This document shows, in pieces, positions 2,934-26,977 of a stretch of DNA of 64,000 bases. This stretch comes from a virus. A program made the translations under genes and the position numbers. Each line of letters starts with the position of its first letter. Position 1 is the first letter of the stretch. The stretch covers positions 1-64,000 of the IMG/VR virus record IMGVR_UViG_3300021365_000014, one strand, 5' to 3'. Below the pieces are notes generated by a model. It saw only the letters and a list, made by a program, of their open reading frames with translations, was not told the origin of the DNA and ran no database searches.

Positions 2934-3561
2934 TAAAAAATTTCTCATAATAACTGCACACCCAGATGATCTAGAAATGGGCTGTGGTGGTCTTGTTGCT
3001 AAAATAAACAAGAACGGCGGTTCTGTCACCAATCTAATACTAGTAAAACCGTCAGTAGAACACAATGTTAACAGAGACGAACAAATAGTACGGAACGAAT
3101 TAGAAAAAAGCAAGAGTGTGTTAAATTTTGAAACTGCAATATACGACACGCCGTTATATGATAATGGTAGGCCGAATCTAACACTGACAAATAATTTAAT
3201 ATCATATGCTGAATCTTGCATCAACGAACACGAAATATTAATATCGCATTGGAGGGAAGACCACCACCAAGACCATAGGGTGTGCTATGATGTGGCAAGA
3301 AGTATATCAAGGAAACACTTCAAACAATTTTGGTGCATGGACGAACCACCATACAATTTACACTACAAAAATTTTGATTGTAATCACTATGTGGATATCA
3401 CAGACTGTGTAGATCAAAAAAGGCAAGCTCTAGAATCATATAGTACATACTTTAATAACTTTTCAATTGATACCATTATCGATTACAACAAATACAGGGG
3501 GAGTTTTTTAGGTGAAAACAAAGTTGCAGAAACATTTCATCTAATGTATAATAAGATATGA
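2926..3561 (+). CDS. PIG-L/LmbE-type zinc deacetylase
   Basis: 211 residues, about the usual length. The family signature AHPDD (residues 11-15) and a second metal and active-site segment (HWREDHHQDHR, about 107-117) are intact. The family removes N-acetyl groups from GlcNAc-type sugars, as in mycothiol and GPI synthesis or antibiotic aminosugars. The ATG at 2926 overlaps the previous stop, and the gene overlaps the following epimerase by 4 bases, so the two are co-translated. A cytoplasmic sugar-modifying role is inferred; the substrate is unknown. Confidence 0.8.
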   Translation: MFDKKFLIITAHPDDLEMGCGGLVAKINKNGGSVTNLILVKPSVEHNVNRDEQIVRNELEKSKSVLNFETAIYDTPLYDNGRPNLTLTNNLISYAESCINEHEILISHWREDHHQDHRVCYDVARSISRKHFKQFWCMDEPPYNLHYKNFDCNHYVDITDCVDQKRQALESYSTYFNNFSIDTIIDYNKYRGSFLGENKVAETFHLMYNKI

Positions 3562-4559: not shown

Positions 4560-5850
4560 ATTTGCTCCTGCAAAAATCCCATGTGTATGTTTGAAGTATG
4601 ATGTCTTCATTATAATCACTTTTCTCAGTGAATTTTTTGCCATCCGTGGCACCTTTGGCCAACCATTCATTTTTGGTTTCTAACCATTTTTTCAATCTGT
4701 GCTGTGTCTCCACTGTGGGTTTTTTGTATTGCCATAACACTAACTTGGATACTTCTCTGAAAGCATTTTTCCATGCCGTGTAATTGTCGGGTGCCAACAC
4801 AGTTTCGTTTGAAATGATAGGTACGACTTCGTGCGGTTGGGATAACGTGAAGTCCAAGATATTATCATCTGGCGTTTCCAGGCACAGTGTTTTATTGTAC
4901 AAGTTGATGTTGAAGGTCCCGTACGCAATATTCAACTCCTGTAAATGTGCATAGAATATCCTGTGCCTTTTTGTCAATGCCCTGTCAACAGTGTAATCAA
5001 ACATGAAAGTTTCCTTGACCTTGCTCTTTGCAAAAACGGCATAAAAATATTCTGTGCTTGATGTTGTGGACGCTTGTTTGTATGCCTGTGTCCTACCGTC
5101 TACGTTGCGTATCCAATGCAGTTTATTTTTTAAGTTATTCTGATATACATGATTTTTAAGTAAGTCATAATTTTCTTGTTCAAATGGTTCTCCGTTTGAA
5201 ATAAAGCAAATGTCAAAACAGTCTTTGTTGTCTGGGACACTAATGTTGTATATGAAGGGATAGTCATATATCTGTGTTTTTATATGTGACAGTGACTTGC
5301 CTGGCAAATAGAAAGTGTTGCCTGACCTGTATATCTTCAAGTCTTCCCAGTAAGACGGATAGAACAAACCATCATCCGAAGTATCTGAGTATTTCATGTA
5401 TCTTGCTATTGGTATTTTGCATGTTGATATGTTTTCCATAACGTTGGACAAATCATAGTGTTGTTCCAGATAATCGAAATCATAATCAAAATTGTGTGTA
5501 TGATAATTGACATCTTTGTAATCACGCAGTAACTTTATGTCTTGGTCAGCAAATTGCCTAGGAAACAGGAACGTATCACCCTCCTGCTGTAGTTCATTTG
5601 CCCAAACATGAACCTGGGTGGCTTGATGCTGTTCTGGAATGTAATCAAAATCAAAATCACTGTAATCAATTTTACTACTCAACATCCATTGGTATCGTGT
5701 TTGTGTCTCCGGCAACATTCTTTTCGCAATTTCCAAATAACTGTCAACAAACGGTATGACCACCGCGTGGGGGAACACAGACTTTATCACTGCTATATTG
5801 TCCCTGCTTTTACTGTTTCCAAAATCTATTGCTATGCAATCAAACACCAT
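4525..5850 (-). CDS. Duplicated glycosyltransferase-like protein lacking a clear DxD
   Basis: 441 residues, last gene of the long minus operon. Residues 246-277 (IRNVDGRTQAYKQASTTSST...YFYAVFAKSK) align by eye with residues 35-68 of the protein at 16553-17452 (AKRVDGVVGFDNAHKAAA...FFISVDGDN), but the DGD is replaced by AKS. A similar block occurs at about residues 28-90 (PFVDSYLEIAKRM, then YQWMLSSKIDYSDFDFDY). The protein therefore looks like two degenerate GT-A-like repeats. A binding or regulatory role is possible; catalytic activity is doubtful. It overlaps the DegT gene by 11 bases. Confidence 0.6.
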   Translation of the reverse strand: MVFDCIAIDFGNSKSRDNIAVIKSVFPHAVVIPFVDSYLEIAKRMLPETQTRYQWMLSSKIDYSDFDFDYIPEQHQATQVHVWANELQQEGDTFLFPRQFADQDIKLLRDYKDVNYHTHNFDYDFDYLEQHYDLSNVMENISTCKIPIARYMKYSDTSDDGLFYPSYWEDLKIYRSGNTFYLPGKSLSHIKTQIYDYPFIYNISVPDNKDCFDICFISNGEPFEQENYDLLKNHVYQNNLKNKLHWIRNVDGRTQAYKQASTTSSTEYFYAVFAKSKVKETFMFDYTVDRALTKRHRIFYAHLQELNIAYGTFNINLYNKTLCLETPDDNILDFTLSQPHEVVPIISNETVLAPDNYTAWKNAFREVSKLVLWQYKKPTVETQHRLKKWLETKNEWLAKGATDGKKFTEKSDYNEDIILQTYTWDFCRSKFKSLYPTEIFY

Positions 5851-6922
5851 AGTACTCCTTGATGGAGTCGCAAACGTGTAAAACCTCGTCCTTCTTAAGG
5901 AAAGGATGTATGGGTAACGAAATCACGTCCTGACACAACTTTTCTGCATTTGGCATTTCCTGTCCGGTATCAAACATCTTCATCCTTGACATGGGTTGTG
6001 GATAATGTATTTGCGTTTGAATCTTTTTGGTATCAAGAAACGCCTTGAGTCCGTCCCTGTCTTGTGCCCTAATAACAAGTTTGTGATTATTTGATGTTGT
6101 GTCTGAACTTGATTCTATTGAACTTATTCCTATGTCATTTAATTTTTTTGTGTACCACTGCCTGACCTTTTTTGATCTAGACAACAAAGACTTATACTTG
6201 GAAAGTAAAAAATTCAAAACGTTGGCATGGTCATTGCTTAGGCATGAGTTGTATCCGTGTTCTAACTTGCCCGTGCCTTTGCCATGGTATCGCAGGCTAC
6301 GGATAAACTTCGCTTCTTCGATGTCATCTGTGAGCACCATCCCCCCGTTGCCAAAACAAGGCAATGGTTTGCTTGGGGCGAAACTGAGACTGCTTATGTC
6401 ACCCAACTTGCCACTTGGTATTTTTTTGTAAAAACTTCCGAGGCTCTGTGCGGCATCTTCTATCAGAGGTATTTTGTGTTTGTCACAGTACTGTCTTAGT
6501 CTATCGTAATCTGCAAGATTGCCAAATAGGTTCACGTACACCAATGCATCGGGTAAGATTGTGGCAGGTAGGTTTGCGATCAATCCTTTCCTGTCAACAT
6601 CAACGAAAGTAATTGTCGCCCCGGTCCTTTTGATCGCTTCCGCTGTGGCTAGATAACTGACCGCTGGACACAGTACATTTGACCCTGGTCCTATTCCTTT
6701 GACCCTTAAAGAAAAATAAAGTGCGTCGGTGCCACTACCTACCGCTACTCCATATTTTCTCTTTGTGAATTTTGCTACAGATTTTTCAAACTTGTCTAAC
6801 CAAGATCCTTCTGTGTGGCTAGTACTAACAACATCACCTGATCTCCAAACTTCTTTTGCCCTACGTGTGATTCTCCAACTGTAGGCATCATAGATCCTAT
6901 CCACTCCACCAAACTTAATCAT
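5840..6922 (-). CDS. DegT/DnrJ/EryC1/StrS-type sugar aminotransferase
   Basis: 360 residues, full length for the family. Visible hallmarks are VGSGTDAL (61-68), the PLP-contacting Asp in IEDAAQS (D156), and the PLP Schiff-base lysine in SFAPSKPLP (about K185) followed by GNGGMV. The family transfers an amino group from Glu or Gln to a keto-sugar nucleotide. The ATG at 6922 overlaps the stop of the tiny lipoprotein (TGATG). The product is probably an aminosugar nucleotide; the epimerase and PIG-L genes nearby fit this. Confidence 0.9.
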   Translation of the reverse strand: MIKFGGVDRIYDAYSWRITRRAKEVWRSGDVVSTSHTEGSWLDKFEKSVAKFTKRKYGVAVGSGTDALYFSLRVKGIGPGSNVLCPAVSYLATAEAIKRTGATITFVDVDRKGLIANLPATILPDALVYVNLFGNLADYDRLRQYCDKHKIPLIEDAAQSLGSFYKKIPSGKLGDISSLSFAPSKPLPCFGNGGMVLTDDIEEAKFIRSLRYHGKGTGKLEHGYNSCLSNDHANVLNFLLSKYKSLLSRSKKVRQWYTKKLNDIGISSIESSSDTTSNNHKLVIRAQDRDGLKAFLDTKKIQTQIHYPQPMSRMKMFDTGQEMPNAEKLCQDVISLPIHPFLKKDEVLHVCDSIKEYYGV

Positions 6923-7071
6923 CAGAATTCTTTCTTAACACCCACATGTGGATTCTCCACACAACTGTCGGTTATTTCTTTCACAGTCTCTTTCTTTAGA
7001 TCTACAACACACGTCGCAGATGGTTTTATTCCACAACCAACTAACAACAACAAAATTATGATATACTTCAT
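6922..7071 (-). CDS. 49-residue lipoprotein
   Basis: A short gene read on the minus strand. ATG at 7071 overlaps the carbamoyltransferase stop (ATGA), and its stop overlaps the DegT start. The N-terminus (MKYIIILLLLVGCG) is a signal peptide with a lipobox cysteine at position 13. The mature part is about 37 residues and contains two more Cys. It would be anchored to a membrane and could act as an entry-exclusion or surface factor, as small phage lipoproteins do; that role is inference. Confidence 0.6.
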   Translation of the reverse strand: MKYIIILLLLVGCGIKPSATCVVDLKKETVKEITDSCVENPHVGVKKEF

Positions 7072-8540
7072 CCTAGCACTTTCACTCCATATTTGTTGGT
7101 AAATGCTTTACCATCTTCCCTGTCGTTCACGATCGGTTGTCCTTTTATGTTCAAACTGGTGTTCAAAAGTATGGGACAACCTGTCTGTCGTTTCCATTCC
7201 GTCAACAACGCATGGAACCCTGGATTATCCGTCTTACGCACCGTTTGAACCCTGGAAGTGTGATCATGATGTATTATGGCAGGGAAGTCTTTACCATGCG
7301 TACACGCCGCTGTAAATTGCATATAAGGGGTGTTTTGGACTGCTGTAGGCAGGGTGAAATACTCATTTACATCCTCCTCTAATATGGCCGGAGCGAATGG
7401 TCTGAACTTCTGTCTTTTCTTGATCGAGTTTACCAAATCCTTGATGTCCTCACCCCGCGGGTCTGCCAACAGTGATCTATTACCAAGTGCCCTTGGACCA
7501 AACTCCGCCCTGCCACTTGCAACTCCCACCATCTTGTTTTCCTTCAATTCTTTTATCAGTGCGTCCACAGGGTACTCGCCATCTATGTTGTGTCCAAGGA
7601 ATGGGTGTTCCCACTTGAGGTGTCTCCTGTGGTGTGCGGCTATGCAACCCAGACTAGATCCTGCGTCACCTGGGTTTGGAATGATCCATATGTTGTCAAA
7701 CAATCCCATGTTGGCCAATACCCTGTTCGCGGCACAGTTCAACGCTACACCACCTGCATACACGAGGTTACGTGATCCGTACTTACTTGCCCTGTGCCAT
7801 AACTCTGCAAGGCACTCTTCTGTGACTGCTTGTATGCTGGCGGCTATGTCCATCACATCTGCATTTGGTTCCCAATCACTCAATCCCCTGTGTAGATTCT
7901 TTTTGAGTTTGAATGGTGTCTGATGCACGAAGTCGTCATAGATTTTCTGTTTGTACTTTGGTGTTCCGTATGCGGCCATGCCCATCAAGATGTACTCCTC
8001 TTCTGCAGGTTTTAGTCCACATCGATGCGTAAATGCACTGTAAAGTATTCCTATGCTGTGTGGATAGTTGAGTGTTTCTTTTCTCTCAATCCAAACTTTG
8101 TCAGCAGTTGATATACTAACTGTTTCCCATTCACCTATTGCGTCCACTGTGAGTATTGTTGCTCCTGTGTCCTTGAACGGTGAAGTGAAGTATCCTGCCG
8201 CGGCGTGTGAGTCATGGTGTTTTACATATTCATCTATCTTGATATTAAAGTGATCCAAATGCCATTGTGGCATCTCTGTGTAACTTAATGCTGTAGCCCA
8301 TTGTCCTGCGTACAACTGTCTTGTTTTCTTCAGCAAAGGTCTCTCGTAGTAAACAACCTTATCAAATGGTCCAAATGTTTTTGCCTCGTCAACTATCTTT
8401 TGGTTGAGATAATGATCGTTCTTGATCTTTGAATAACGTTCACTGTGTGCCGCCCACAGTATCTCACCTATGCCTGAACTGTAATCCACAACAGCCATTG
8501 CGGCATCGTGGTTCATACAATTAATTCCAAGTATTCTCAT
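7068..8540 (-). CDS. O-carbamoyltransferase, NodU/CmcH/TobZ family
   Basis: 490 residues, somewhat shorter than the usual 550-600. The Kae1-like N-terminal half has HDAA (11-14), the catalytic region HHDSHAAAGY (108-117) and VDAIGE (about 132-137). The nucleotide/metal region YAGGVALNCAAN and the YrdC-like C-terminal motif EFGPRALGNRS are intact. The family uses carbamoyl phosphate and ATP to carbamoylate hydroxyl groups of sugars or nucleosides. The operon context suggests a sugar or nucleotide acceptor. Carbamoylation of DNA base adducts is also conceivable for phages. Confidence 0.9.
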   Translation of the reverse strand: MRILGINCMNHDAAMAVVDYSSGIGEILWAAHSERYSKIKNDHYLNQKIVDEAKTFGPFDKVVYYERPLLKKTRQLYAGQWATALSYTEMPQWHLDHFNIKIDEYVKHHDSHAAAGYFTSPFKDTGATILTVDAIGEWETVSISTADKVWIERKETLNYPHSIGILYSAFTHRCGLKPAEEEYILMGMAAYGTPKYKQKIYDDFVHQTPFKLKKNLHRGLSDWEPNADVMDIAASIQAVTEECLAELWHRASKYGSRNLVYAGGVALNCAANRVLANMGLFDNIWIIPNPGDAGSSLGCIAAHHRRHLKWEHPFLGHNIDGEYPVDALIKELKENKMVGVASGRAEFGPRALGNRSLLADPRGEDIKDLVNSIKKRQKFRPFAPAILEEDVNEYFTLPTAVQNTPYMQFTAACTHGKDFPAIIHHDHTSRVQTVRKTDNPGFHALLTEWKRQTGCPILLNTSLNIKGQPIVNDREDGKAFTNKYGVKVLG

Positions 8541-8688
8541 CTTGCTCCTTGTGCCATCCCATGTCTTCTATTTGTGTGCTGTTACACTTTGGACATACCC
8601 ATCCTTCGTCTGTGTTAAAATCTTGTGCAAGATCTTGTGGTGCACCACGCCACTTACAATTATAACAGTACCAGTTCCACCATGTCAT
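8521..8688 (-). CDS. 55-residue zinc-ribbon protein
   Basis: A small gene on the minus strand. ATG at 8688 overlaps the GNAT stop (ATGA), and its 3' end overlaps the carbamoyltransferase start by 20 bases. It has two CxxC knuckles (CYNC near residues 8-11 and CPKC near 32-35), which would form one rubredoxin-like or zinc-ribbon metal site. The N-terminus is Trp-rich. It could be an electron carrier for the radical SAM enzymes or a structural partner of the carbamoyltransferase; neither can be shown here. Confidence 0.65.
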   Translation of the reverse strand: MTWWNWYCYNCKWRGAPQDLAQDFNTDEGWVCPKCNSTQIEDMGWHKEQDENTWN

Positions 8689-9257
8689 TTAATGCTCCAG
8701 GTGGTGTTCCGCCATTTTTCTGTGACCTTGCCTTTTAATTTCTCCCATTCGCTCAACTCTATGTCATACTCGAAATTCTGTGTGGTCAGGTTCACTTGTA
8801 CTTCCTTGGCTCCGTTCTTTAGGTGGAACTTCCTGGCCATGTCCGTTAACGGACTCAGTGTAACCAGTCTACTAAGGTGATTAGACTCTTTGATCATCTT
8901 GTACACTTCGTTGACCATGTGCTTGCCGCCACCTTTCTTCTTGGCCCACACTGTGTAGGCTATCGCTATGGTGCCCTGTACACCTGCCCGGTGTATGGCC
9001 TGCATGGCGGCATCCCGACTCATTGCATCCATTTCCTCCACGCTCTTTGGGATATCATGTGTGAAAGCAAAACACATCACAGCGGCTATGTCACCTTCCT
9101 CGTCCCTTATGCCGTAGATCTTCCTGCCATGCGATTGTCTGAATTCGAGACTCAACTCCGGCCTAACTGGATCTTCCGTGACATCTATGAACGGCAGTTC
9201 TATCAATTCGAACTTGGGCGACTTTTCCAGGGCCTTATAAATTTTTTTAAGCACCAT
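8685..9257 (-). CDS. GNAT-family N-acetyltransferase
   Basis: 190 residues. The acetyl-CoA-binding motif A region is visible as a beta strand (IAIAYTVWAK) followed by KKGGGK at the start of a helix. A motif-B-like segment (ARKFHLKNGAKEV) follows near residues 140-155. Phage relatives are annotated only as hypothetical or acetyltransferase. It sits between the 34-residue gene and the zinc-ribbon gene, with an ATGA overlap to the latter. It may acylate an aminosugar made by the same operon. Confidence 0.65.
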   Translation of the reverse strand: MVLKKIYKALEKSPKFELIELPFIDVTEDPVRPELSLEFRQSHGRKIYGIRDEEGDIAAVMCFAFTHDIPKSVEEMDAMSRDAAMQAIHRAGVQGTIAIAYTVWAKKKGGGKHMVNEVYKMIKESNHLSRLVTLSPLTDMARKFHLKNGAKEVQVNLTTQNFEYDIELSEWEKLKGKVTEKWRNTTWSIK

Positions 9258-9258
9258 T

Positions 9259-9363
9259 TTATTTGTATATGAACGGGTCTTTCTTCTTCAGCTCTTTGAG
9301 CCTCTTCCTATATTTGATCTCTTGTCGAATCTTGTTCCATATGTTCTTAATCCAAGTAAACAT
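9259..9363 (-). CDS. 34-residue basic conserved phage peptide
   Basis: ATG at 9363 overlaps the stop of the SGNH gene (TAATG) and the gene ends just before the GNAT start. The peptide is strongly basic and helical, ending KKKDPFIYK. Very similar short Lys-rich peptides ending in DPFIYK are, from memory, found in T4-like marine phages. That, with the exact coupling, makes a real gene likely. The function is unknown. Confidence 0.6.
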   Translation of the reverse strand: MFTWIKNIWNKIRQEIKYRKRLKELKKKDPFIYK

Positions 9364-10157
9364 TATCTGTCTCCTATTAGTTTATTAAAAGTTGGTAACA
9401 TTAATTGTACAGCATCTCGGTGTGCCTCGTCAAGTGGATGTGTTGTGCCACGTGGGTAGTCATTTAGCAGTGCCCATTGATTGAAACCCATCATCCTCTC
9501 TCCAAACGAGAACCATTTGGTAAAGTCTATCTCGCTATGCAATGCCGTTATGAAGGTGTCCTGGTCCTTGTGCTGTTCGAACTCATTGTAAAAAAGACTG
9601 TTGTCAGCCAGTGTGAACATGAATGGTATTTTCTTCTTCTCCAGGATGTTCTGTAACCAAATTATGCTCTTCCAACTGAGATAAGTCTCATGGTATTGGT
9701 TGGCCGCATACTTGTATATGGCTTCCGCGAAAGGCTTTACTCCGGTATCTATCATGGATTGTTGGTGTTTCTTCCAGTGTTCCTGCTGTGCCTCTGATCC
9801 CGACAGGGCCTGATGTCTCTCCGAGTCTGCCATGCTGGTGTCCCAAGGTGATATCGAGGTCCAACGTGTGTCCTCTAATTGTTTGTGTCTGGGCATGGCC
9901 CAATCATACCTTGAAAGGAAACTCCACATCACGACCACACACCCTATATCATTATTGTTGGCTACTGTATTGAACACTCGTCTCGCTATGGCTTGGTTCC
10001 CTAGACCTCCAAATGCTGTACATAGGTATTCGTGTCCTGATTCTATAGACAATCCATGGGCCCAAGTCTTTTTTGATGGTGTTTTTCCGTCCACGTCGTC
10101 ACTCAGCTCATTGCCCAGTGTGAAACTGCATCCGCCTGCTATTAATTTCTTAGTCAT
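9363..10157 (-). CDS. SGNH/GDSL-hydrolase-like protein
   Basis: 264 residues. The order of conserved blocks fits the SGNH fold: GGCSFTLGNEL with a nucleophile-like Ser (S11), GGLGNQAIAR with Gly and Asn, and a C-terminal HPLDEAH segment like the catalytic Asp/His block. SGNH enzymes are esterases or sugar O-acetyl transferases/esterases. Marine phages carry many such proteins of unknown substrate. It directly follows the five radical SAM genes (8-base overlap), so it likely acts in the same pathway. Confidence 0.7.
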   Translation of the reverse strand: MTKKLIAGGCSFTLGNELSDDVDGKTPSKKTWAHGLSIESGHEYLCTAFGGLGNQAIARRVFNTVANNNDIGCVVVMWSFLSRYDWAMPRHKQLEDTRWTSISPWDTSMADSERHQALSGSEAQQEHWKKHQQSMIDTGVKPFAEAIYKYAANQYHETYLSWKSIIWLQNILEKKKIPFMFTLADNSLFYNEFEQHKDQDTFITALHSEIDFTKWFSFGERMMGFNQWALLNDYPRGTTHPLDEAHRDAVQLMLPTFNKLIGDR

Positions 10158-11328
10158 AAATTTTTAAAATGTTATTTAAAAGTGGAAACATGTCTCCAAA
10201 ATTTTCTTTCCTGTACTGATCGGTTTGTAGTATTCTTCTTTTTCTTTCTGCCCGTATCTCAGGTGTATCTCTGTCAACGGCATTCATAAATCTTATGCTG
10301 GGTTGGTAGTCTGTGAGCATGTGATACCTATCAACCACAATATCCTTTACCTGTCTTGGCAGTGTCTGTATGTTGAACACATCTGGATCAAAGCAAGTGT
10401 TTACATAAAAAAACTTAGGTTGAAACTGTGCCACCCATAGTGCCATCTTGGCCCAATTGAACACATTGAATATATTCACTGTCGAACATATTTGAAAATC
10501 CATATTATGAGTTTTCATTTCTTTAAACTTAACAAGGTTTTGATTTACTTCTCGCCATTTGGCAGGATGTCTCTGGTACTCAAAAGGTTCTCCCACATCA
10601 TCAATGCTGAACGCCACTTCCACATGTTTGAAATAACTCCATAGGTCAAATATTTCCTGTGGTGGCAACTGTGTGCCGTTGGTGTTGTAATGTATGTCTA
10701 TGTTCTTGGCATATCCTTTCTCAACACAGTGAATCAATATCTTGAAGTGATCCTTAATCATGAACGGTTCGCCGCCTGTGAATTCAAAGTACTCCACGTG
10801 TTTGAGGTCCTCCTGCAACTCCTCGAAGAACTGTGGGTTTCGTTTTGGCCAGCCTCCCTCTTTCAGTTGCTTTCTTGCCACGGGATTATCTCCACCCTTG
10901 GCTGTCTCATAATCTATTTCTTCCTGTGCCCACTTTGAAGAACTCCACGATCCGCAAATCCTACATTTTAAATTACATACGTTGCCCAACTTAAAGTCGA
11001 TGAATTTCAACGTTGGCTCGCTATTAGGTGTCCAGTTTTCTAAACTGCTACGCATTTTGTAAATTGAGTTTTGCCTTTTGGATGTTTTTCCGGCATCTTC
11101 TTCTTGCCAACAACTCTGGCAACCTTTAGGACGCTCGCCATCTCTGAACTTCTTTCTTAAAAGTTCCATGTATTCTGTTTGCTGTATTGATTTAAGGCTT
11201 TGTTCGTACACCTTTACACCAGGAATACTGCCCTTGTACAAACAACAAGGAGATGCACCGCCATTTACATCAACTTCCAGATGAGTCCACGGCAATGGGC
11301 ACATGTTTGAATCTATATACTTGTCCAC
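10150..11328 (-). CDS. Radical SAM protein with N-terminal auxiliary-cluster domain (copy A)
   Basis: 392 residues, GTG start at 11328, overlapping copy B by 16 bases. The radical SAM motif CNLKCRIC gives C118, C122 and C125, and GGEP is at 185-188. Upstream is a SPASM/twitch-like Cys set placed N-terminally: C10 (CPLPWTH), C28-C29 (PCC), C70 and C73 (GCQSC). A motif shared by all five copies (SIDDVGEPFEYQR here) follows. It should bind one catalytic and one auxiliary 4Fe-4S cluster. The substrate is unknown. Confidence 0.88.
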   Translation of the reverse strand: MDKYIDSNMCPLPWTHLEVDVNGGASPCCLYKGSIPGVKVYEQSLKSIQQTEYMELLRKKFRDGERPKGCQSCWQEEDAGKTSKRQNSIYKMRSSLENWTPNSEPTLKFIDFKLGNVCNLKCRICGSWSSSKWAQEEIDYETAKGGDNPVARKQLKEGGWPKRNPQFFEELQEDLKHVEYFEFTGGEPFMIKDHFKILIHCVEKGYAKNIDIHYNTNGTQLPPQEIFDLWSYFKHVEVAFSIDDVGEPFEYQRHPAKWREVNQNLVKFKEMKTHNMDFQICSTVNIFNVFNWAKMALWVAQFQPKFFYVNTCFDPDVFNIQTLPRQVKDIVVDRYHMLTDYQPSIRFMNAVDRDTPEIRAERKRRILQTDQYRKENFGDMFPLLNNILKIYD

Positions 11329-12596
11329 CAGTCTAAAACCCTTTCATCTCTGCTTAATATTTTTTTTATATCCTGTTTTCGTATCTTATCAATGTTTTCT
11401 TGTCTCTGTTTTCCTTTTTTAGTTGGTGTGAAGGTTTCTCTGTTTTTTAAATTCTTTATGACCTCTATCAGTGATCGTTGTTTTCTTGTGGCCAGAGGTT
11501 CGATGTATGCAAGTGCTTCGTCAATTATGGTGTGTAGCAGTTTTTTGGGCAGTGCTAATGGACTTAAAATTTCATCATTGCTAAAGGTAAACATGACTTT
11601 TGTTAATATCTCTGTGTCCAACTCCCTGCTCAAATCAAACATGTTTTTTAGTTCTAGTAACCCAGGCATTGTGATCGTATAATCTAATCTCATCTCTCTG
11701 GCTGTTTTTGCCACTGCCATTCCTTCTTTGAAATTGCGTAACCACTGTTCATAGTTTAATCCGTCTCTGATATACTCTCCAACTTCTCCTGTACCATCTA
11801 ATGATGAACATATTTGCCAATCCTGGAACTGTGGCAGTAAGTCAAACAGTTTGATTCCCTTGAATGATGTCCTACTTAGATTCGTGTTGTATCTCACATA
11901 CACTTCTTTTGCGAATCCTAGTTCTATTATCCTCTGCATGGCCTTCCAATGCATGTCCCACATCAACGGTTCTCCGCCGCACCAGTATATTTCTTTTATC
12001 CTTTTTGTTTCTACTGCTTCAACGAACTCCTGTACAACCTGTGTGTCTTGGAACTTTATGATCTGTTCTCTCAAAGGTGACGCCATCCATGGTTGTGATT
12101 CTTTGCTCCATGTTTTGTTCTTTCTAGATTCTGCTTCCCAACTACTGCTTAACATGTCTCCACACATCCTACATTTGAAATTGCATAGGTTGTTGAACCT
12201 GTAATCAAAACTGATGGTTTGCATTGTGGTGGCGCCTGTTTCGTCCGTGCTGTCGTATGCTTCGTCCACCCTGTCCTTGAACAATTGATTCCAATATGAT
12301 CTGTATACATCTGTGTTCAATAACTTGTGATCACACACTTGGCATTCCGGTAATTCTTCACCTGCCATCATACGCAGTCTAACAGATTTCATGTGATCTG
12401 AATTCCAGTGTTCTTTTAGTGTAAGAGGTTTGTATTCCTTAGCATCGTTGCCTGTGTCTATGTACTGCTTGAAACTCTGTGCAGGCTCTCTGGATGCACA
12501 ACACAAGCGTCTCTCTGTCTGTGGTGACAGGTACGTGTGCGTCCACGGTGCCATGCAGAATGTTTTGTTGCCTTCGCTGGGTTTAATTCGCTTCAT
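11313..12596 (-). CDS. Radical SAM protein with N-terminal auxiliary-cluster domain (copy B)
   Basis: 427 residues, ATG start. The radical SAM cluster is CNFKCRMC (C138, C142, C145) and the next block is GGEP (WCGGEPLM). The auxiliary Cys set is C14 (CMAPWTH), C32-C33 (LCC), C85 and C88 (ECQVC). The family motif SLDGTGEVGEYIRDG is present. It is a paralogue of copies A and C, sharing the CC type auxiliary module. Genes overlap by 14-16 bases on both sides, implying one transcript and coupled translation. Confidence 0.88.
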   Translation of the reverse strand: MKRIKPSEGNKTFCMAPWTHTYLSPQTERRLCCASREPAQSFKQYIDTGNDAKEYKPLTLKEHWNSDHMKSVRLRMMAGEELPECQVCDHKLLNTDVYRSYWNQLFKDRVDEAYDSTDETGATTMQTISFDYRFNNLCNFKCRMCGDMLSSSWEAESRKNKTWSKESQPWMASPLREQIIKFQDTQVVQEFVEAVETKRIKEIYWCGGEPLMWDMHWKAMQRIIELGFAKEVYVRYNTNLSRTSFKGIKLFDLLPQFQDWQICSSLDGTGEVGEYIRDGLNYEQWLRNFKEGMAVAKTAREMRLDYTITMPGLLELKNMFDLSRELDTEILTKVMFTFSNDEILSPLALPKKLLHTIIDEALAYIEPLATRKQRSLIEVIKNLKNRETFTPTKKGKQRQENIDKIRKQDIKKILSRDERVLDWWTSI

Positions 12597-13866
12597 ACAA
12601 TTCCTTCAATTCAGGAAATGTCTCGAGGATATTTTCGTCTCTGATCACGTCCATCTTTTTCATTGTGTCTTTGAACTGTTGTATGTCTTTGTTGTTGTCT
12701 CTCCTCATCATGTAATTAAGTCCAGATTCGAATCCTTTAGTTGCCCTGGTGAGATTGTCTAAAGGACGCAACCATTCGAGATGTTTCTCTATTTTTTCTT
12801 TGACTTTTTGTTTGTAAGACTCTGGTAAGAGATCTATTCTCTGTGCATACGGATATTGAAGTAGGTTAAAATTAAAGTCTTGTGGTTTGAGTAGGCCTTG
12901 TTCAACCCAATTTCTATGGAAGTCTGATATGTGCAGTGCATTAATAAGTCCAACCGTGCTTGATATGTAGAAATCCACTTTGGGGCAAACTTCTAACATT
13001 CGTTTTCTGTTTGCAACAACATCTTCCCATACAGTGCCTTTACGCATGTACTCTCCCCTGGCTCCCTCTGCGTCTAAACTTGCACCTATCGATACGGAAT
13101 CAAACTTGTTCCATAACTCTAAGACATCAATGTCTTTATATTTTGTCCTCGTGAAGTTTGTGTTATAAATTAATCTCACGTGATACATTTTACGCCTATC
13201 TAGTTCTTTCAATATCCTATAGTGTTCTTCCATGATTATCGGTTCGCCACCTGCGAAGTAGAACTGTTCAACGTGTTCGAACTGTTCCAACATTTGATCC
13301 CATATGTCATCACTGCTTCTACCCACCTTCATGATCTTTGCATGACTCGGCGGAGCACCTGTAAGTTTTTTATGATCCTCGTACCAGTTTGAACTGAACC
13401 ATGTGCCACAACTCCTGCAGGCCAGGTTACACAGGTTACTGAATCTAATATCCCAATACTTTATAACGAAGTCTGCTGTGCCGTCAGGCTGTGTGTTTTC
13501 TATCATGCTTATGTTGTGTCCAAAGTGTTTGTTCGAACTAAGACGCAGACTGAAGAATCCTGATTGCTCTTGATCATAACATTTTGTACAGTGTTTGCTT
13601 TTTTTATTAGACAACATGTTTTGTCTTATCTGTCGCATATCTTTGCCATTGAAAACCATCTCCATCGAATCCTTGTTCAGATCGCCTACAGGATATTTGT
13701 CTAATGCGAAACAGCAAGGATATGCCCTGCCATCTGGAAATGCATGTATGTGCAACCAAGGCATCATGCAGAATGATTCACTGTCTAGCAACAACTCCTT
13801 CTCTTTAGGCGTCATGTCTTTGATCTTTAATTTCTCAGGCTCTTTCGCCCCGTACTCATATGCCAC
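12583..13866 (-). CDS. Radical SAM protein with N-terminal auxiliary-cluster domain (copy C)
   Basis: 427 residues. The start is a GTG at 13866, with an AGGAG ribosome site 9 bases upstream. The radical SAM motif is CNLACRSC (C146, C150, C153), then GGEP (FAGGEPII). The auxiliary set is C33 (CMMPWLH), C51-C52 (YPCC), C93 and C96 (HCTKC). The family motif SLDAEGARGEYMRKG is present. It is closest in layout to copies A and B, with an N-terminal extension of about 20-25 residues. Confidence 0.88.
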   Translation of the reverse strand: MAYEYGAKEPEKLKIKDMTPKEKELLLDSESFCMMPWLHIHAFPDGRAYPCCFALDKYPVGDLNKDSMEMVFNGKDMRQIRQNMLSNKKSKHCTKCYDQEQSGFFSLRLSSNKHFGHNISMIENTQPDGTADFVIKYWDIRFSNLCNLACRSCGTWFSSNWYEDHKKLTGAPPSHAKIMKVGRSSDDIWDQMLEQFEHVEQFYFAGGEPIIMEEHYRILKELDRRKMYHVRLIYNTNFTRTKYKDIDVLELWNKFDSVSIGASLDAEGARGEYMRKGTVWEDVVANRKRMLEVCPKVDFYISSTVGLINALHISDFHRNWVEQGLLKPQDFNFNLLQYPYAQRIDLLPESYKQKVKEKIEKHLEWLRPLDNLTRATKGFESGLNYMMRRDNNKDIQQFKDTMKKMDVIRDENILETFPELKELYEAN

Positions 13867-15199
13867 GGTACCATTCTCCTATAATTGGGAAAGTCTTCTC
13901 GAAGTTCTTTCCTGATCGTTTGTCGTATTGACTGTAAAATGCTTTGAAGTCTTGCTGTAGTTTACTCTGCTCGGCCGCACCCGAATGTGGTGTTTTGACA
14001 ACATCCAAGTAATCTATAAGTCTCTGTGTTTGATTGATTTCCATGCCCTCTAACCATTTACTATTACTAGTTAAGAACTTTACCAAGTCTCCTTTAAATT
14101 TATTTCTTAGGTCGTCTGGTAGTACAAGTGGTGATTGGAAACTTGGAAACCTCAATATGTTAAGCGTGAAGTTGACCTCCGGTCCGTACACTTTACTTGC
14201 ACTCTTGAACCATACCATTTTCTCCAACAGTTGAGGCAATGACTCCAAACACAGTGCATTTATGGTACACATGTTATGGATCGCACGTGGAACTTTGTCC
14301 ACCATCATGTGCAAGAAATTACTATGCCAATCTCCGTACACCAATCCGTCTCTGATGTATTCGGCTTGTCCAAACGTTGCTTCACAACTTGTGTACAGTT
14401 CAAATTTGTCAAACTTCTTTAGTTTTGTTTTGAGTCTGTCAATAATGCTCTGCTTTGCACCCAGGTTACTGTTGATTGCAAGTGTCATGTCAGGATTCAT
14501 TTTGTCGCCCTGTGTCTCTATCCAGTCCAACAGTCTCCATAGGTTGGGGGACATCATTGGCTCTCCGCCTGTTATCCTCAGTTCATCAAGGCTCTTGTGT
14601 AGGTCTGTCTCCCACCATTTGTAGAATGCTTCAACGTAGGGATTGGTTTCGTCTTTTTTGTATGGCTCTGCACTTTCATGACTGTGAGTGAAGTGATTAC
14701 GTCCATCGGTTTTCATATCTGTGTATGGTCCTTGCCTCTTTATGTTGTTTGCCCACGTGGAACTGAATGCAGGATTACAATATGTACAAGCAAAGTTACA
14801 GGTCCTGTCAAATGCTATTTCTAAAGTTTTTAAATTTACATCGGTGTTTGGGTCTGCCTTGTGTGCTTCATCTAATGATTCATTTGAGAATATCTTGGAT
14901 TTGTACACCCTGTCACTGATATTATCTCTGTTGATATCCTCTATCTTCCAGCAGTATTCACACCCTTTTGGTCTGTCGCCACACTGCATTTGTTTACGTT
15001 CCTGTTTCTTTTGTACTGTGTTGTGTATCGCACTTGGGTTTGTTTTGATTGCCTCTAGATCAATCTTGTGTGGAAGTGGATGGTGACAACTTGTGGTCAT
15101 ACCACTGCCCAACCATATAGTAGCATTGTACCACTTGGCTCCACAGAAACTTGCACTCTTTGGATCCAGTATTTGTTTTTTATATTCTAAATCATTCAT
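13856..15199 (-). CDS. Radical SAM protein, SCxHP-type auxiliary domain (copy D)
   Basis: 447 residues from the ATG at 15199, which overlaps the previous stop (ATGA) and has an AAGGAG site upstream; an in-frame TTG further out is less likely. The radical SAM motif is CNFACTYC (C134, C138, C141), then TGGEPMM. The auxiliary module differs from A-C: C19 (CGAKW), then SCHHP (C38 with H39/H40) instead of CC, then C80 and C83 (GCEYCWK). The motif SCEATFGQAEYIRDG is kept. With copy E it forms a second subfamily. Confidence 0.88.
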   Translation of the reverse strand: MNDLEYKKQILDPKSASFCGAKWYNATIWLGSGMTTSCHHPLPHKIDLEAIKTNPSAIHNTVQKKQERKQMQCGDRPKGCEYCWKIEDINRDNISDRVYKSKIFSNESLDEAHKADPNTDVNLKTLEIAFDRTCNFACTYCNPAFSSTWANNIKRQGPYTDMKTDGRNHFTHSHESAEPYKKDETNPYVEAFYKWWETDLHKSLDELRITGGEPMMSPNLWRLLDWIETQGDKMNPDMTLAINSNLGAKQSIIDRLKTKLKKFDKFELYTSCEATFGQAEYIRDGLVYGDWHSNFLHMMVDKVPRAIHNMCTINALCLESLPQLLEKMVWFKSASKVYGPEVNFTLNILRFPSFQSPLVLPDDLRNKFKGDLVKFLTSNSKWLEGMEINQTQRLIDYLDVVKTPHSGAAEQSKLQQDFKAFYSQYDKRSGKNFEKTFPIIGEWYRGI

Positions 15200-16566
15200 G
15201 CGTTCATACACTCCTTCCAAAATTCTTCCATCTCAGGGAAGGTGTTAAGAAACCTTGTGAGACGTCTGCGATCGTGTTCGTTAAAAAAGGCGTAAAAGTT
15301 TTTTTTGTTTTGCGTACTTGCGTCCGCGTTTTCGCGCCAGTATGCGAGATTCCTCTGCATCTTCTGGATCTCGAAGTCCTTGAATATGTGTAGCCCGTTC
15401 GACTCTCCGGAGTTGGCCTGCATGTACTTGATGTTGTCCTCGTGTATTGATTGGTACGACTCGGGCAACATCGTTATCTGTTGCCATGCGGGTTGTCTCA
15501 GCAGTGGCACGTCAAACCACACACGCTGGTAGGTTTTCGAATACTTGGTTCTCAGTTCCAAGATCTTCTCTAACAGTTTGTCCATGCTTGTAATACTCAA
15601 ATTGTTGTACGTGCATATGAAAGTGATTGAATTACGACCAGGTATCCTGTCCAAGAACTCCTCCACGTTGTCCATCATGTAGGTGAAGTCCAGGCCGTCA
15701 CGTATGTACTCAGCACGTTTGCCGAATGCGTCCACGCTCACAAACTGCATCATGTGTTCGACCTTCTCCTGCATACATATCTCCTGTGCCATGTTGAAAT
15801 ATTTCTCCTTCAGTTTCTTGTCCGGAGGACACATGTTGCTGGTCACGTTGAGGTGCAGGTCATCCTTGGGATTGTCTATTATGTACTGAAACACCTTGTA
15901 GGTATTCACGTCCATCATGGGTTCACCACCGGTCATACGGAAGTGTTTGAGATTCTTGTACAGCGTTGGCCACCATTTCCAGAACGCGGTCACGTAAGGG
16001 TTCTCCTCCCTGTTGGGTATGGGCCTCCTTCGACCTTGGAAGTGTTCTGGTGCGTTGTGGGGAGGGGTGGTAGGATATTCGCCGTATCTGTCCACCTCCT
16101 TGGCCCACGTGGTCGAGAACTGAGGTGAACAATAACTGCACTTGAAGTTACAAGCGTTGTTGAAGTTCACCTCAACATATCTCGGCGTCCAACTTGTGCT
16201 CATTGGATTCTTCCTGATCTGCTCGAAGTCCTGCATGGCCCATGGTTCACCTGAACGATAATGCCTGTCTGACATTTCGCCCGTGTCCTCCAGTTTCCAG
16301 CAGTAAGAACATCCTCCTGGACGTTCACCTTTAAGCATTTTGGATCTTTGATCTAGTTTCTCTGCGGTGTTGTGCAGTGCCGCGGGATTGGATTTGACTT
16401 GGTCAGCGTCTATCTCATGCAGTGGCGGATGGTAGCAACTGTTGGTCAATCCAGTTGGCAGGTGCAGTGAAGTCTGGTTCCACTTGGCCAGGCACATTGT
16501 TGGCGAAACTTCCTGTAGTTTATCCTTGGCCTTCAGTGCGTCTGACTTGTAATCACTTGTACTCAC
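15196..16566 (-). CDS. Radical SAM protein, SCxHP-type auxiliary domain (copy E)
   Basis: 456 residues if it starts at the GTG at 16566, which has AGGAG 9 bases upstream and overlaps the upstream gene by 14 bases. An in-frame start 26 codons further out has no such support. The radical SAM motif is CNFKCSYC (C139, C143, C146), then TGGEPMM. The auxiliary set is C25 (CLAKW), SCYHP (C44 with H46), C86 and C89 (GCSYCWK). The family motif SVDAFGKRAEYIRDG is present. It is most similar to copy D. Confidence 0.88.
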   Translation of the reverse strand: MSTSDYKSDALKAKDKLQEVSPTMCLAKWNQTSLHLPTGLTNSCYHPPLHEIDADQVKSNPAALHNTAEKLDQRSKMLKGERPGGCSYCWKLEDTGEMSDRHYRSGEPWAMQDFEQIRKNPMSTSWTPRYVEVNFNNACNFKCSYCSPQFSTTWAKEVDRYGEYPTTPPHNAPEHFQGRRRPIPNREENPYVTAFWKWWPTLYKNLKHFRMTGGEPMMDVNTYKVFQYIIDNPKDDLHLNVTSNMCPPDKKLKEKYFNMAQEICMQEKVEHMMQFVSVDAFGKRAEYIRDGLDFTYMMDNVEEFLDRIPGRNSITFICTYNNLSITSMDKLLEKILELRTKYSKTYQRVWFDVPLLRQPAWQQITMLPESYQSIHEDNIKYMQANSGESNGLHIFKDFEIQKMQRNLAYWRENADASTQNKKNFYAFFNEHDRRRLTRFLNTFPEMEEFWKECMNA

Positions 16567-17452
16567 GATCTTGCACTCCTTTGTTCCTGTGTATTGGCAT
16601 GACAAACCTGTAGAACCTGCTGTCTTCTTCAGTGAACTCCGCAATAGGTATGTCCAATTGTTGTCTCAGACTGTTACCGTACATCACAAGTTCGTCATCA
16701 ATATCGCTTTGTGCTATCTGGTTGTAGTACACCTCCATGCTGTCCAAGTCTCGCACTTTGTAAAGTTCATTGTTTGGTTCAAGCACTGTGTAGAAGCAAC
16801 CCATCCTAGAGCCAAGCATGGCATATTTGCCATTCTCGATGTCTGCACCTATCGTACACCATGTGCTCAGAATGTTGAGGTTGTTCTTCCATATCTGTTT
16901 TGAATAATTCTTGGCTGTGATAGGCTTTCCTTTCTCGGTGCTCATCTTCACGCCTTCTCGGTAGCCTGCCACGAATGCCTGTTGTGGTGTTGCATTGATT
17001 ACAGTCGTTGAATAACAGTTATGGAGGTTCTCGTGCGGCACTCCCCAGCAGAAGTCTATTTGGTTCTCCTCTGTTTCAGCATTTTCGTGTGTCTTCATTG
17101 ACTTGCAGGTTTGCTTGTCCCATCCAACTATGCCACCGTTGCCGTAAACGAGTCCGTTTATGCTGTTCTTTGCCCTCCATCTATGTACGGCCTTCCTGTC
17201 AGTCTTGTCCCAGGCAAGTGTCTCCAAAAGGAATTTCTCATCTATAATGTTGTCTCCGTCGACACTGATGAAGAAATCCGTTTCTGCTATGTCGGCCGCG
17301 GCCTTGTGTGCGTTGTCAAAACCCACCACTCCGTCAACACGCTTGGCCCATGGCACCTTGTTCTTTAGATCGGCCCAGTTTTCTTCTTTGTTTGGCTCCT
17401 TAAATGAAATGTATACGAAGTCGAGATCGCTTATTCTTGTTCCATTAGCCAT
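16553..17452 (-). CDS. GT-A-like glycosyltransferase of marine-phage type
   Basis: 299 residues. The block AKRVDGVVGFDNAHKAAA followed by DFFISVDGDN (D65, D67) is typical of a large family of uncharacterised phage glycosyltransferase-like proteins. The DGD would bind the metal and nucleotide sugar. The N-terminal DFVYISFKEPNKEENW segment is also characteristic. It overlaps radical SAM copy E and the upstream 100-residue gene. It is likely a cytoplasmic transferase acting with the operon's sugar enzymes; donor and acceptor are unknown. Confidence 0.7.
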   Translation of the reverse strand: MANGTRISDLDFVYISFKEPNKEENWADLKNKVPWAKRVDGVVGFDNAHKAAADIAETDFFISVDGDNIIDEKFLLETLAWDKTDRKAVHRWRAKNSINGLVYGNGGIVGWDKQTCKSMKTHENAETEENQIDFCWGVPHENLHNCYSTTVINATPQQAFVAGYREGVKMSTEKGKPITAKNYSKQIWKNNLNILSTWCTIGADIENGKYAMLGSRMGCFYTVLEPNNELYKVRDLDSMEVYYNQIAQSDIDDELVMYGNSLRQQLDIPIAEFTEEDSRFYRFVMPIHRNKGVQDREYK

Positions 17453-17733
17453 GCTTTGCCTCCCTCCACTATACCTGTGGGCCAGTGTATGTCGTCGTCC
17501 TGGAATACGTATCCTTTTTGTGTTTCCTTCAAGATTCTGTACTGCGTATTTGCCTTTGGTTTTGGTTTTAAAACTATCTCACTATCCTTGATCATTAGAT
17601 TTTCTTCACCGTGCTGTTGTGCCCACTTTTTTTTCTCTAGGGTAACTTCGTGTTTTTCACCAGCAACAGTGATGTAGAATTTTTTTTCAGGTCTACGTGG
17701 TGTCTTTGCTAACGCTTCAAATAATCCTGGCAT
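17431..17733 (-). CDS. Hypothetical protein, 100 residues
   Basis: The start is chosen at the ATG at 17733 because AGGAG lies just upstream and the overlap with the previous gene is then 17 bases. The soluble, Lys-rich protein ends in an acidic/aromatic segment (GYVFQDDDIHWPTGIVEG). No catalytic motif is seen. Its position between glycosyltransferase genes, overlapping both neighbours, makes a partner role plausible. Confidence 0.55.
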   Translation of the reverse strand: MPGLFEALAKTPRRPEKKFYITVAGEKHEVTLEKKKWAQQHGEENLMIKDSEIVLKPKPKANTQYRILKETQKGYVFQDDDIHWPTGIVEGGKAWLMEQE

Positions 17734-18511
17734 GTAACTCCTTGTCGTGGTAGTGCCACACTCGATCAACACGTGTCTCACCTATGTACACCGCGTCTCC
17801 GGACTTGTTGGGGTAAAGATAATTGTTCTGATCCATGGCTCTCATTGTGTTATTCACTCCTGGCTTGTGATGTATAAATTTAAACCATTCATAGTCGATC
17901 AAATCTTTCGCTGTTGGATCCATTATCCTGTAAGCAAGAGCAAACACAACATCTGTGCTAGGATATTTGTCATGACAGTCTATCAACATACTTGTCTTTA
18001 CCTGGGTCCAATTTTTTACTATGTGTTTTGCGATTTCATAAAAGTTCTGTGCCTTTTTGCTCCTACGGAAATACATCAATCCGTTGTAGATGTTGGGCAA
18101 GTGATTTCTCTCGAACAGTTTCCTGTATGGGGTATGTTTAATCACGTTACCTCGATAATCAAAGCAGTCAACACTGAATAACAAATCGTGTTGCCACAAG
18201 TGATACCACCACCAATCTGTGTTGGTTGTCCATAACATGTCCGCTTCAAGTTTGATTGTGTGAGTGAAAGGGGAGATCTGGAACGCCTTGTGCTCGTTTG
18301 CCCACTTGATGTCATGTGCCGCACTGTCGTCTTGCCTCACCACTTTCACAACATCCACGTGTTCACTGTCGAACTTACTTTTCTCATCTGTGATCACGCA
18401 TATCTTGTTGTGCTTGTTCCAACGTTTTATGCTCTTTGCTAGAGTAATGGACAGTTCAACGTAGTCAGTCTTGTCATTGTTTTGTGCAAACCACAGAAAT
18501 CCCCTAGACAT
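17717..18511 (-). CDS. GT-A-like glycosyltransferase (paralogue 2)
   Basis: 264 residues from the ATG at 18511 (AGGAG 7 bases upstream, 8-base overlap with the previous gene). It begins MSRGFLWFAQ, like its neighbour's MSRGVLLFCF. The sequence TIKLEADMLW (E89, D91) sits where the neighbour has the DxD, so the metal site may be ExD. A Trp/Tyr-rich stretch follows. It is probably a glycosyltransferase of the same family as the gene upstream; the acceptor is unknown. Confidence 0.65.
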   Translation of the reverse strand: MSRGFLWFAQNNDKTDYVELSITLAKSIKRWNKHNKICVITDEKSKFDSEHVDVVKVVRQDDSAAHDIKWANEHKAFQISPFTHTIKLEADMLWTTNTDWWWYHLWQHDLLFSVDCFDYRGNVIKHTPYRKLFERNHLPNIYNGLMYFRRSKKAQNFYEIAKHIVKNWTQVKTSMLIDCHDKYPSTDVVFALAYRIMDPTAKDLIDYEWFKFIHHKPGVNNTMRAMDQNNYLYPNKSGDAVYIGETRVDRVWHYHDKELHARII

Positions 18512-19253
18512 TGAATATCTCCTTATTAAGGACATGCACATCTTGATTTTCCACCCATGATATCTGATCATTGTATTTCCATGCGATACCTTCGTTGGTC
18601 ATGTCAATCACTTCACAGTCTGGCGGCAGTGTCGGTAGTGCGAACGGCATCTTTTCATATCCAACAAATCCGTTTATCTGTTGCAGTGCCATTGCGAACA
18701 GATAATCATTACGTAGGTTCTTGGCATATATCCTGTACATCTCGTTGAAGTAAGAGTAGTTCTTCTTGATGTATTTTACTGTGTCAAATATCTTCCTTAC
18801 TTTTTCGTTTTTCTTAAACAGTAGCACAGTCGCCCACACCATGGGTATCATGCTCCACCTCCTGTGGTCGAACGTGTTCCTGCCTGTAAGATCATATGCT
18901 GTGTCTGGTACCAGGAAATCATATTCTGTGTCAAAGAGCTCTAACAAGTTATCCGTAAAACAGAAGTAGTCGATGTCCATCACAAGTGTTTTGTCATAGG
19001 GAGAAAGTTCGTATGCAAGATGCCTGTCCACATTGTTCCAAGATTTTCCTAGTTTAGTGTTACCTAGTTCGGGTTCAATAAATTTGTAATTTATTAAGCC
19101 TAATGGTTTGATTTTATTGAAAGTTTCAAAGTTAGTGACCACTGTGATTTCTACTTTGAGATTTTTCTTTACTAGGGCCACACACCTCTCCAGTATCTTG
19201 TGATACCGTGTGTGTTCAGTGTCAAAACAGAAAAGCAATACACCCCTGGACAT
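18504..19253 (-). CDS. GT-A-like glycosyltransferase (paralogue 1)
   Basis: 249 residues, starting at the second of two adjacent ATGs (19253), which gives a better distance to AAGGA and matches the MSRG start of the paralogue. The DxD motif is in LVMDIDYFCF (D93, D95), after a DRHLAYELSPYDK segment typical of GT-A phage proteins. It is translationally coupled to the upstream 105-residue gene (ATGA/TGATG). It likely transfers a sugar in the cytoplasm. Confidence 0.7.
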   Translation of the reverse strand: MSRGVLLFCFDTEHTRYHKILERCVALVKKNLKVEITVVTNFETFNKIKPLGLINYKFIEPELGNTKLGKSWNNVDRHLAYELSPYDKTLVMDIDYFCFTDNLLELFDTEYDFLVPDTAYDLTGRNTFDHRRWSMIPMVWATVLLFKKNEKVRKIFDTVKYIKKNYSYFNEMYRIYAKNLRNDYLFAMALQQINGFVGYEKMPFALPTLPPDCEVIDMTNEGIAWKYNDQISWVENQDVHVLNKEIFNV

Positions 19254-19570
19254 CATGCGTCCTTTTTGGTGAATGTCTTGTATATCTGATGGTATGCGTT
19301 CAGGCTCTCTTGATTGCGTTCCACTAGGATCGATAGGAATTTCGCCGGGTCAGTGATCTCAACCGGATTGTTGTTTGTGTCCAACAAGTAGAAACTGTCC
19401 TGTGATTCCTTCAAGGTCCTCACCAGGCAGATCGTTGTGGGATCCGCACGGAAAAGATTCCCGTTATAGGCCAAAACCTGTCGTGAGTGTGCCTTCTCCA
19501 GAGCGTTGCGTTTGGCGACCGCTATGTCGTAAGATAGATCTGATTGTCGTTTGAGTTCGCGAATATCCAT
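19253..19570 (-). CDS. Conserved phage hypothetical protein, first gene of the long minus operon
   Basis: 105 residues from the ATG at 19570; the ORF extends further but without support. It is helical and charged at the N-terminus (MDIRELKRQSDLSYDIAVAK), with a compact C-terminal half (SFYLLDTNNNPVEITDPAKF). Similar short proteins occur in T4-like marine phages with no known role. It lies immediately behind the promoter-like sequence at 19577-19605. Confidence 0.6.
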   Translation of the reverse strand: MDIRELKRQSDLSYDIAVAKRNALEKAHSRQVLAYNGNLFRADPTTICLVRTLKESQDSFYLLDTNNNPVEITDPAKFLSILVERNQESLNAYHQIYKTFTKKDA

Positions 19571-20584: not shown

Positions 20585-20588
20585 ATTG

Positions 20589-22217: not shown

Positions 22218-22220
22218 TGT

Positions 22221-22403: not shown

Positions 22404-22422
22404 TTAAATGTACTCCTTATGC

Positions 22423-25527: not shown

Positions 25528-25533
25528 AAAGGA

Positions 25534-26967: not shown

Positions 26968-26977
26968 TTGCTTATAT

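Follow-up and report, generated by a model that had tools for sequence, protein, structure and literature searches.

Results

Five overlapping radical SAM genes with an N-terminal twitch

The window analysed here, 64 kb of the 66,378-base virus record IMGVR_UViG_3300021365_000014 in IMG/VR, carries on its minus strand a row of five open reading frames (ORFs) for radical SAM proteins, which we call R1 to R5 (10150-16644; Table 1). Each ORF overlaps the next, as the initial annotation of this DNA had described in speaking of five overlapping paralogues, and there is no gap anywhere in the row. The ORF of R5 opens at 16644, and an in-frame GTG at 16566 gives a gene of 1371 nt, a length common to many orthologues; the true start of R4 may lie slightly downstream of the opening of its ORF. 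All five are members of the NCBIfam family NF033640 (N_Twi_rSAM, "twitch domain-containing radical SAM protein"), which they match with 285.9-417.9 bits (E 5e-85 to 4e-125) against a curated cut-off of 170 bits; the search for relatives that the annotation had proposed leads to this one named family, with its auxiliary module before the core. Pfam Radical_SAM is matched above its cut-off by R1-R3 and below it by R4 and R5.

In a five-way alignment CxxxCxxC (C118, C122 and C125 in R1 numbering) and GGEP are invariant, as had been noted, together with EYxR and the S of an SxD sub-motif. It had also been claimed that SxDxxG...EYxR is common to all five, which is true of EYxR but not of SxD, present in four of the five, R4 having SCE there. 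Motifs of the type SxDxxG...R are common among SPASM-type radical SAM enzymes, and for this reason we do not consider the motif special here. The Cys set described in front of the core corresponds to the invariant C10, C29, C70 and C73 (R1 numbering) of the N-terminal module, the second ligand of which reads CC in R1-R3 and SCHH/SCYH in R4/R5. GGEP is kept in 293 of the 293 orthologues collected from 62 viral loci, and 292 of them have the four Cys of the N-terminal module ahead of the core. As all five proteins match NF033640 strongly and the motifs are kept across these orthologues, the sharing of motifs is not a matter of chance. Unlike the classical SPASM/twitch enzymes, whose auxiliary-cluster module is C-terminal, R1-R5 have it at the N-terminus and show no conserved Cys after the core. 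This N-terminal module is their unusual feature, and it is the very trait for which NF033640 is named; we reject the idea that the architecture is novel, since N-terminal twitch and core are already covered by that family.

An AlphaFold model of R3, built with 21 diverse relatives as input (predicted local distance difference test, pLDDT, 91.6; predicted template modelling score, pTM, 0.89), shows the radical SAM core fold and not an unrelated one, and its best solved matches (CteB, anSME, SkfB, BlsE and viperin) are all radical SAM enzymes. Among BFVD models, those closest to it are radical SAM proteins of uncultured phages; MoaA/NifB/PqqE family proteins of the Vibrio phages KVP40 and phi-pp2 rank lower. 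When the profile of the N-terminal module was used alone, the best PDB match was the C-terminal twitch of BtrN, a weak match (E 0.03) in which the four Cys are aligned; the whole-length profile matched BtrN with E 0.003-0.005. As the module finds its best match in this C-terminal twitch, the twitch seems to have been shifted from behind the core to a place ahead of it.

A fixed set of five enzymes across viral loci

The 62 viral loci were obtained by searching IMG/VR with R3 as the query. Exactly five NF033640-type genes are present in 52 of the 52 loci in which the whole region lies inside the contig, the remaining 10 being cut by a contig end. The order R5-R4-R3-R2-R1 is found in all loci except two (L063 and L064), where R2 and R1 are swapped, and some loci have insertions between R5 and R4, namely an SGNH-like relative of F7 (about 16 loci) or a member of another family (16 loci). 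In a FastTree phylogeny of 132 family members, the deep branches of which are unsure, each of R1-R5 forms one clade (support 96-100). The five together do not, as bacterial sequences lie between them: R3 groups with sequences of Flavobacteriales and other Bacteroidota, and R4/R5 with sequences of Bdellovibrionota. A recent tandem duplication is ruled out by this separation. The median ratio of nonsynonymous to synonymous substitution rates (dN/dS) is 0.04-0.09 across all five (about 0.09 for R5 and about 0.06 for R4), synonymous sites being close to saturation in many of the pairs compared. R1-R5 thus represent five clades of old standing, each held by strong purifying selection, and are five distinct, separately maintained enzymes and not redundant copies. 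The earlier proposal of a stepwise pathway on one scaffold is therefore supported in that five non-interchangeable enzymes are kept together, which such a pathway requires, but a single common scaffold is not.

Across L006-L067, the R2 proteins fall into identity classes relative to the window (about 50-56%, 64-66% and 77-97%). Since these classes are often out of step with how similar the neighbouring R genes are, the comparison suggests exchange of R2 alleles. An alternative oxidase gene (PF01786) stands between R3 and R2 in L043 (11214-11891), with the same spacing in L044 and L060.

Glycan-type neighbours and genomic setting

The conserved frame around the set consists of tail fibres, F8, F3, F2, F6, F0, R5-R1, F7, F11, F9, F12 and F0b, with F10 and F19 on the opposite strand. 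Constant within this frame are the tail fibres, the SGNH-like protein, the NodU/TobZ-type carbamoyltransferase and three proteins that resemble glycosyltransferases. The aminotransferase and carbamoyltransferase reported beside the set were recovered by Pfam (Table 1), and the glycosyltransferases reported with them only by remote profile and structure matches: Pfam gave no useful match for F0, F2 or F3, and PDB profile searches with F0, F3, F7 and F0b gave nothing useful. The best Foldseek matches of F0 are GT-A and nucleotidyltransferase enzymes (E 0.01-0.05, from a moderate model with pLDDT 71.5). In the absence of a useful Pfam match, we consider F0, F2 and F3 likely, yet remote, glycosyltransferases. 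Homologues of F7 adjoin a carbamoyltransferase both in bacteria and in MH319727.

Table 1. Genes of the cassette and its surroundings in the window, and related genes of phage KVP40
Feature	Position	Strand	Assignment	Details
R1	10150..11328	-	N-terminal-twitch radical SAM	NF033640 365.4 bits; own clade, support 100
R2	11313..12596	-	N-terminal-twitch radical SAM	NF033640 324.9 bits; clade support 100; two allele classes across loci
R3	12583..13866	-	N-terminal-twitch radical SAM	NF033640 417.9 bits; clade support 100
R4	13856..15220	-	N-terminal-twitch radical SAM	NF033640 285.9 bits; clade support 96
R5	15196..16566 (ORF opens 16644)	-	N-terminal-twitch radical SAM	NF033640 324.7 bits; clade support 98
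F0	16553..17452	-	GT-A-like, FFISVDGDN motif	overlaps R5; family in 63 loci
F6	17431..17727	-	companion protein of about 98 aa	C-terminal GY.F.D.DIHWP..I.EGG..W conserved
F2	17717..18571	-	GT8/glycogenin-like glycosyltransferase	profile A7 vs glycogenin chains, E 0.007-0.07
F3	18504..19256	-	glycosyltransferase-like, distant F2 paralogue	F2/F3 profiles cross-match, 25-41 bits
F8	19253..19570	-	conserved companion of about 106 aa	adjoins fibre gene
Tail-fibre-type gene	19619-20584	-		directly upstream of cassette
Tail-fibre-type gene	20589-22217	-		directly upstream of cassette
F7	9363..10157	-	SGNH-hydrolase-like	GGCSFTxG N-terminus; GGCSFT.G invariant in alignment A9
F11	8685..9257	-	possible GNAT-type acyltransferase	by look alone; no convincing Pfam match; 36 loci
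F9	7068..8540	-	NodU/TobZ-type O-carbamoyltransferase	PF16861 1.4e-54, PF02543 5.2e-43; 51 loci
F12	5840..6922	-	DegT/DnrJ/EryC1 sugar aminotransferase	PF01041 3.6e-77
F0b	4525..5850	-	larger relative of F0	F0 profile match, 47 bits
F10	3558..4559	+	NAD-dependent sugar epimerase/dehydratase	PF01370 4.6e-39
F19	2926..3561	+	PIG-L-type deacetylase	PF02585 3.2e-15
KVP40 0260	L285 (KVP40 131000-149000): 4056-5045	+	N-terminal-twitch radical SAM	
KVP40 0261	L285: 5038-6162	-	N-terminal-twitch radical SAM	
KVP40 0272	L285: 12445-13497	-	N-terminal-twitch radical SAM	

On the strand of the cassette, a large structural protein (29209-42234) is followed by fibre-type genes (19619-28474) and then by the cassette itself. 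The product of 20589-22217 finds matches among the virion genes of Atu_ph07 and of phages related to it, and by the baseplate gene the nearest isolates are Atu_ph07-type jumbo T4-like phages, with about 32-38% identity. In its position, with tail fibres behind a large protein that would correspond to the baseplate protein VrlC, the cassette may match the host recognition clusters that T4-like marine phages carry, the local glycosyltransferase assignment being remote. It accompanies F8 wherever the contig extends far enough, with one exception at a contig end; L245, considered as a cassette-free relative, was dropped, as its match covers 56 residues at a contig end and is not informative. The late-type motif TATAAATA lies 22 bases before the baseplate gene at 42234-45716 and none occurs within the cassette, which hints at late expression, with 2-3 such motifs per strand expected by chance.

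The product of 20589-22217 also has a weak match to the Peptidase_G2 autoproteolytic-cleavage domain (21.9 bits, cut-off 25), and the protein encoded at 24100-25527 (minus strand) is Gly-rich and fibre-like and contains a stretch resembling a Hint/intein (CFIAGTMISMHDGSLKPVEQVDIGD). Among replication-type genes, at 56125-57465 (plus strand), stands a further, separate radical SAM gene in which a B12-binding domain is weakly matched; a relative sits inside the cassette region of L103.

The family in bacteria and other phages

In bacteria, NF033640 is found chiefly in Bdellovibrionota and Flavobacteriales, and its genes frequently form arrays. Among 20 bacterial genomes searched, several are multi-copy, and one Bdellovibrionota genome has 19 members that pass the cut-off, of which 13 are packed into 29 kb. 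Large arrays of Bdellovibrionota are seen among L104-L179 (for example L119, L107 and L137, and the genomes of L105 and L135). A PF02543-type carbamoyltransferase is present in 11 of 71 bacterial loci of the family, compared with 0.46 expected from the density of such genes in the same kinds of genomes (P about 3e-12 if the loci are independent, some being related). This test is conservative, since the genomes used for the density were partly chosen for that neighbour. Relatives of F7 stand beside a carbamoyltransferase in two bacterial loci (L113 and L115), and in the unrelated marine virus AG-345-D19 two SGNH genes, a carbamoyltransferase and an N-terminal-twitch radical SAM gene form one row. 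In the cultured Vibrio phage K566, four members are interspersed with two genes that Pfam assigns to GT8 and one GT-B-like gene, and these members adjoin PagP and LpxC. In cultured phage KVP40, three members with the four-Cys module score 114-131 bits, below the cut-off, and one of them is two genes away from a PF00534 glycosyltransferase. The carbamoyltransferase, SGNH and glycosyltransferase partners thus recur in unrelated phages and in bacteria.

The three KVP40 genes are annotated as moaA/nifB/pqqE and heme biosynthesis. Eight larger related phage records contain 5-11 NF033640 genes above the cut-off, made up of the five and of scattered singles; the family has accordingly also spread as single genes, which stand among core phage genes and may have a role different from that of the set. 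Some of the singles (L088-L100) are near IMP-dehydrogenase-like and QueE-like genes, among others. Members from Poseidonocella, Sphingomonas and Paenibacillus (L117, L125 and L138) lie in secondary-metabolite-like clusters, and in L117 and L125 a similar transferase-like gene adjoins the radical SAM gene.

Discussion

We lean, with some reservation, towards the explanation that R1-R5 and the glycan genes build and radically modify a decorated sugar or short glycan, which would be placed on the host surface or on the tail fibres. The epimerase and the aminotransferase would make an amino sugar, the carbamoyltransferase would O-carbamoylate it, and the glycosyltransferases would attach the decorated sugar. 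The five radical SAM enzymes could carry out five C-H activation steps at unactivated positions, to oxidise, epimerise, deoxygenate or cross-link. That five steps are needed is supported by the fixed co-occurrence of the five genes. As acceptor, host lipopolysaccharide or its O-chain could be considered, the modification of which would alter phage recognition; this would agree with the context in K566 and with what was inferred for pelagimyophages (PMC7029224). Alternatively, the acceptor could be the phage's own tail fibres, as the position of the cassette may indicate. The glycan context of the set is supported by its gene neighbourhood; that the substrate is a sugar, that the five act in succession, which reaction each catalyses and which acceptor receives the product are our inferences. 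The initial annotation had favoured a sugar or a nucleotide over a peptide; the glycan-type neighbours here, in other phages and in bacteria argue for the sugar, and a nucleotide is not supported. A wider proposal, that N-terminal-twitch enzymes form a large class of glycan editors that has gone unrecognised and that the phage set performs five successive radical steps on one glycan displayed on the virion or host surface, is one that we make tentatively and with considerable doubt.

Several observations weigh against a glycan role. The bacterial arrays L107 and L137 are flanked by housekeeping genes (of the nuo and ATP-synthase types in L107) and have no glycan genes with them, the scattered phage copies stand singly among core phage genes, and the bacterial clusters L117 and L138 contain acyl-carrier-like proteins. 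Within the window the glycosyltransferase calls are remote (E 0.007-0.05), and in the open-licence literature we found no function or substrate for any member of NF033640. Lastly, the structures nearest to R3 are those of the peptide-modifying enzymes CteB, anSME and SkfB, with BlsE and viperin close behind.

This last point, together with the near-constant presence of F6, makes a peptide or protein substrate the chief rival: F6 or a tail-fibre protein could be a scaffold that is matured as in ribosomally synthesized and post-translationally modified peptides (RiPPs). F6 is found in 59 loci, every one of which also holds the radical SAM genes, its C-terminus keeps aromatic residues, and it is possible that it serves as a carrier or protein substrate. 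However, it lacks a core that is rich in Cys or repetitive, its conservation lies at the C-terminus instead of in a leader followed by a variable core, and it occurs neither in the bacterial loci nor in the arrays of K566 and KVP40. F8 is an unlikely RiPP precursor, being conserved over its full length without a core region, and a precursor gene within the row of five is ruled out by the lack of a gap for a small gene. The earlier statement that no RiPP precursor is evident was thus too strong, F6 and F8 being constant small companions, although neither resembles a classical precursor. The statement that there is no recognition element agrees with our searches, in which no Pfam match of the RiPP recognition element (RRE) or PqqD type was obtained for R1-R5 or their nearest neighbours at E 0.1. 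On balance we give a peptide or protein substrate a small though real chance.

Carbamoyltransferases, aminotransferases and glycosyltransferases also occur in known DNA hypermodification pathways, and relatives have a QueE-like gene in another part of the genome, so that carbamoyl, amino and glycosyl groups might instead be placed on a phage DNA base. We find this unlikely, as the set lies behind tail fibres and not among replication genes, the K566 members adjoin LpxC and PagP, and both PF00303 (thymidylate-synthase/dCMP-hydroxymethylase) and PF00145 (C5-cytosine methyltransferase) are absent from seven related records of 114-197 kb, which are maybe incomplete. A general Fe-S or metabolic role, or an anti-defence role through viperin-like modified nucleotides, with no link to glycans, also seems improbable to us. 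The prokaryotic viperin family NF038283 comes up as a runner-up (33.8 bits for R1) and the PDB matches of R3 include viperin folds, but 33.8 bits is the highest score of any of R1-R5 against a cut-off of 180. Moreover, an N-terminal twitch is not known from viperins, and the neighbours are glycan-type. An interpretation as Fe-S metabolism has been given for a T4-like marine environmental genome with 12 radical SAM genes (PMC5332604).

NF033640 is an orphan enzyme family with tandem arrays in phages and predatory-type bacteria. A set that is whole in every complete locus and has recurring partners gives a definite class of substrate for testing, which is within reach because K566 and KVP40 are in culture. 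If a modified surface sugar is indeed the product, then phages perform multi-step radical chemistry on surface sugars, and its cost would imply strong selection at host recognition.

Among known systems, NF033640 has the same N-terminal twitch and core as R1-R5, and its name is purely architectural and states no function. The closest solved folds of R3 are the peptide-modifying SPASM/twitch enzymes CteB, SkfB and anSME. These have C-terminal auxiliary domains and peptide substrates, and peptide maturases use recognition domains, whereas no recognition domain was found in R1-R5. BtrN, a sugar-alcohol dehydrogenase, has a twitch that aligns weakly, with its four Cys, to the N-terminal module, and carries it after the core where R1-R5 carry it before. 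The host recognition clusters of pelagimyophages, described in 2020, bring radical SAM cassettes together with GT8 genes and tail fibres, from which modification of the O-chain was inferred (PMC7029224). In these T4-like marine phages, too, the tail-fibre region holds both glycosyltransferase and radical SAM genes, but there the radical SAM genes are a variable addition, whereas here the set is fixed and the phage is nearer to the jumbo T4-like Atu_ph07 by its baseplate. The T4-like marine genome reported in 2017 resembles the relatives studied here (5-11 NF033640 genes) in having many radical SAM genes; the section of that report consulted here describes no cassette, family or glycan context for them (PMC5332604). 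In the open-licence literature we found no report of the five-gene set, of its conservation or of a link between NF033640 and a carbamoyltransferase/SGNH module. In conclusion, the architecture and marine phages with multiple radical SAM genes were already known, and it is the cassette that appears to be new.

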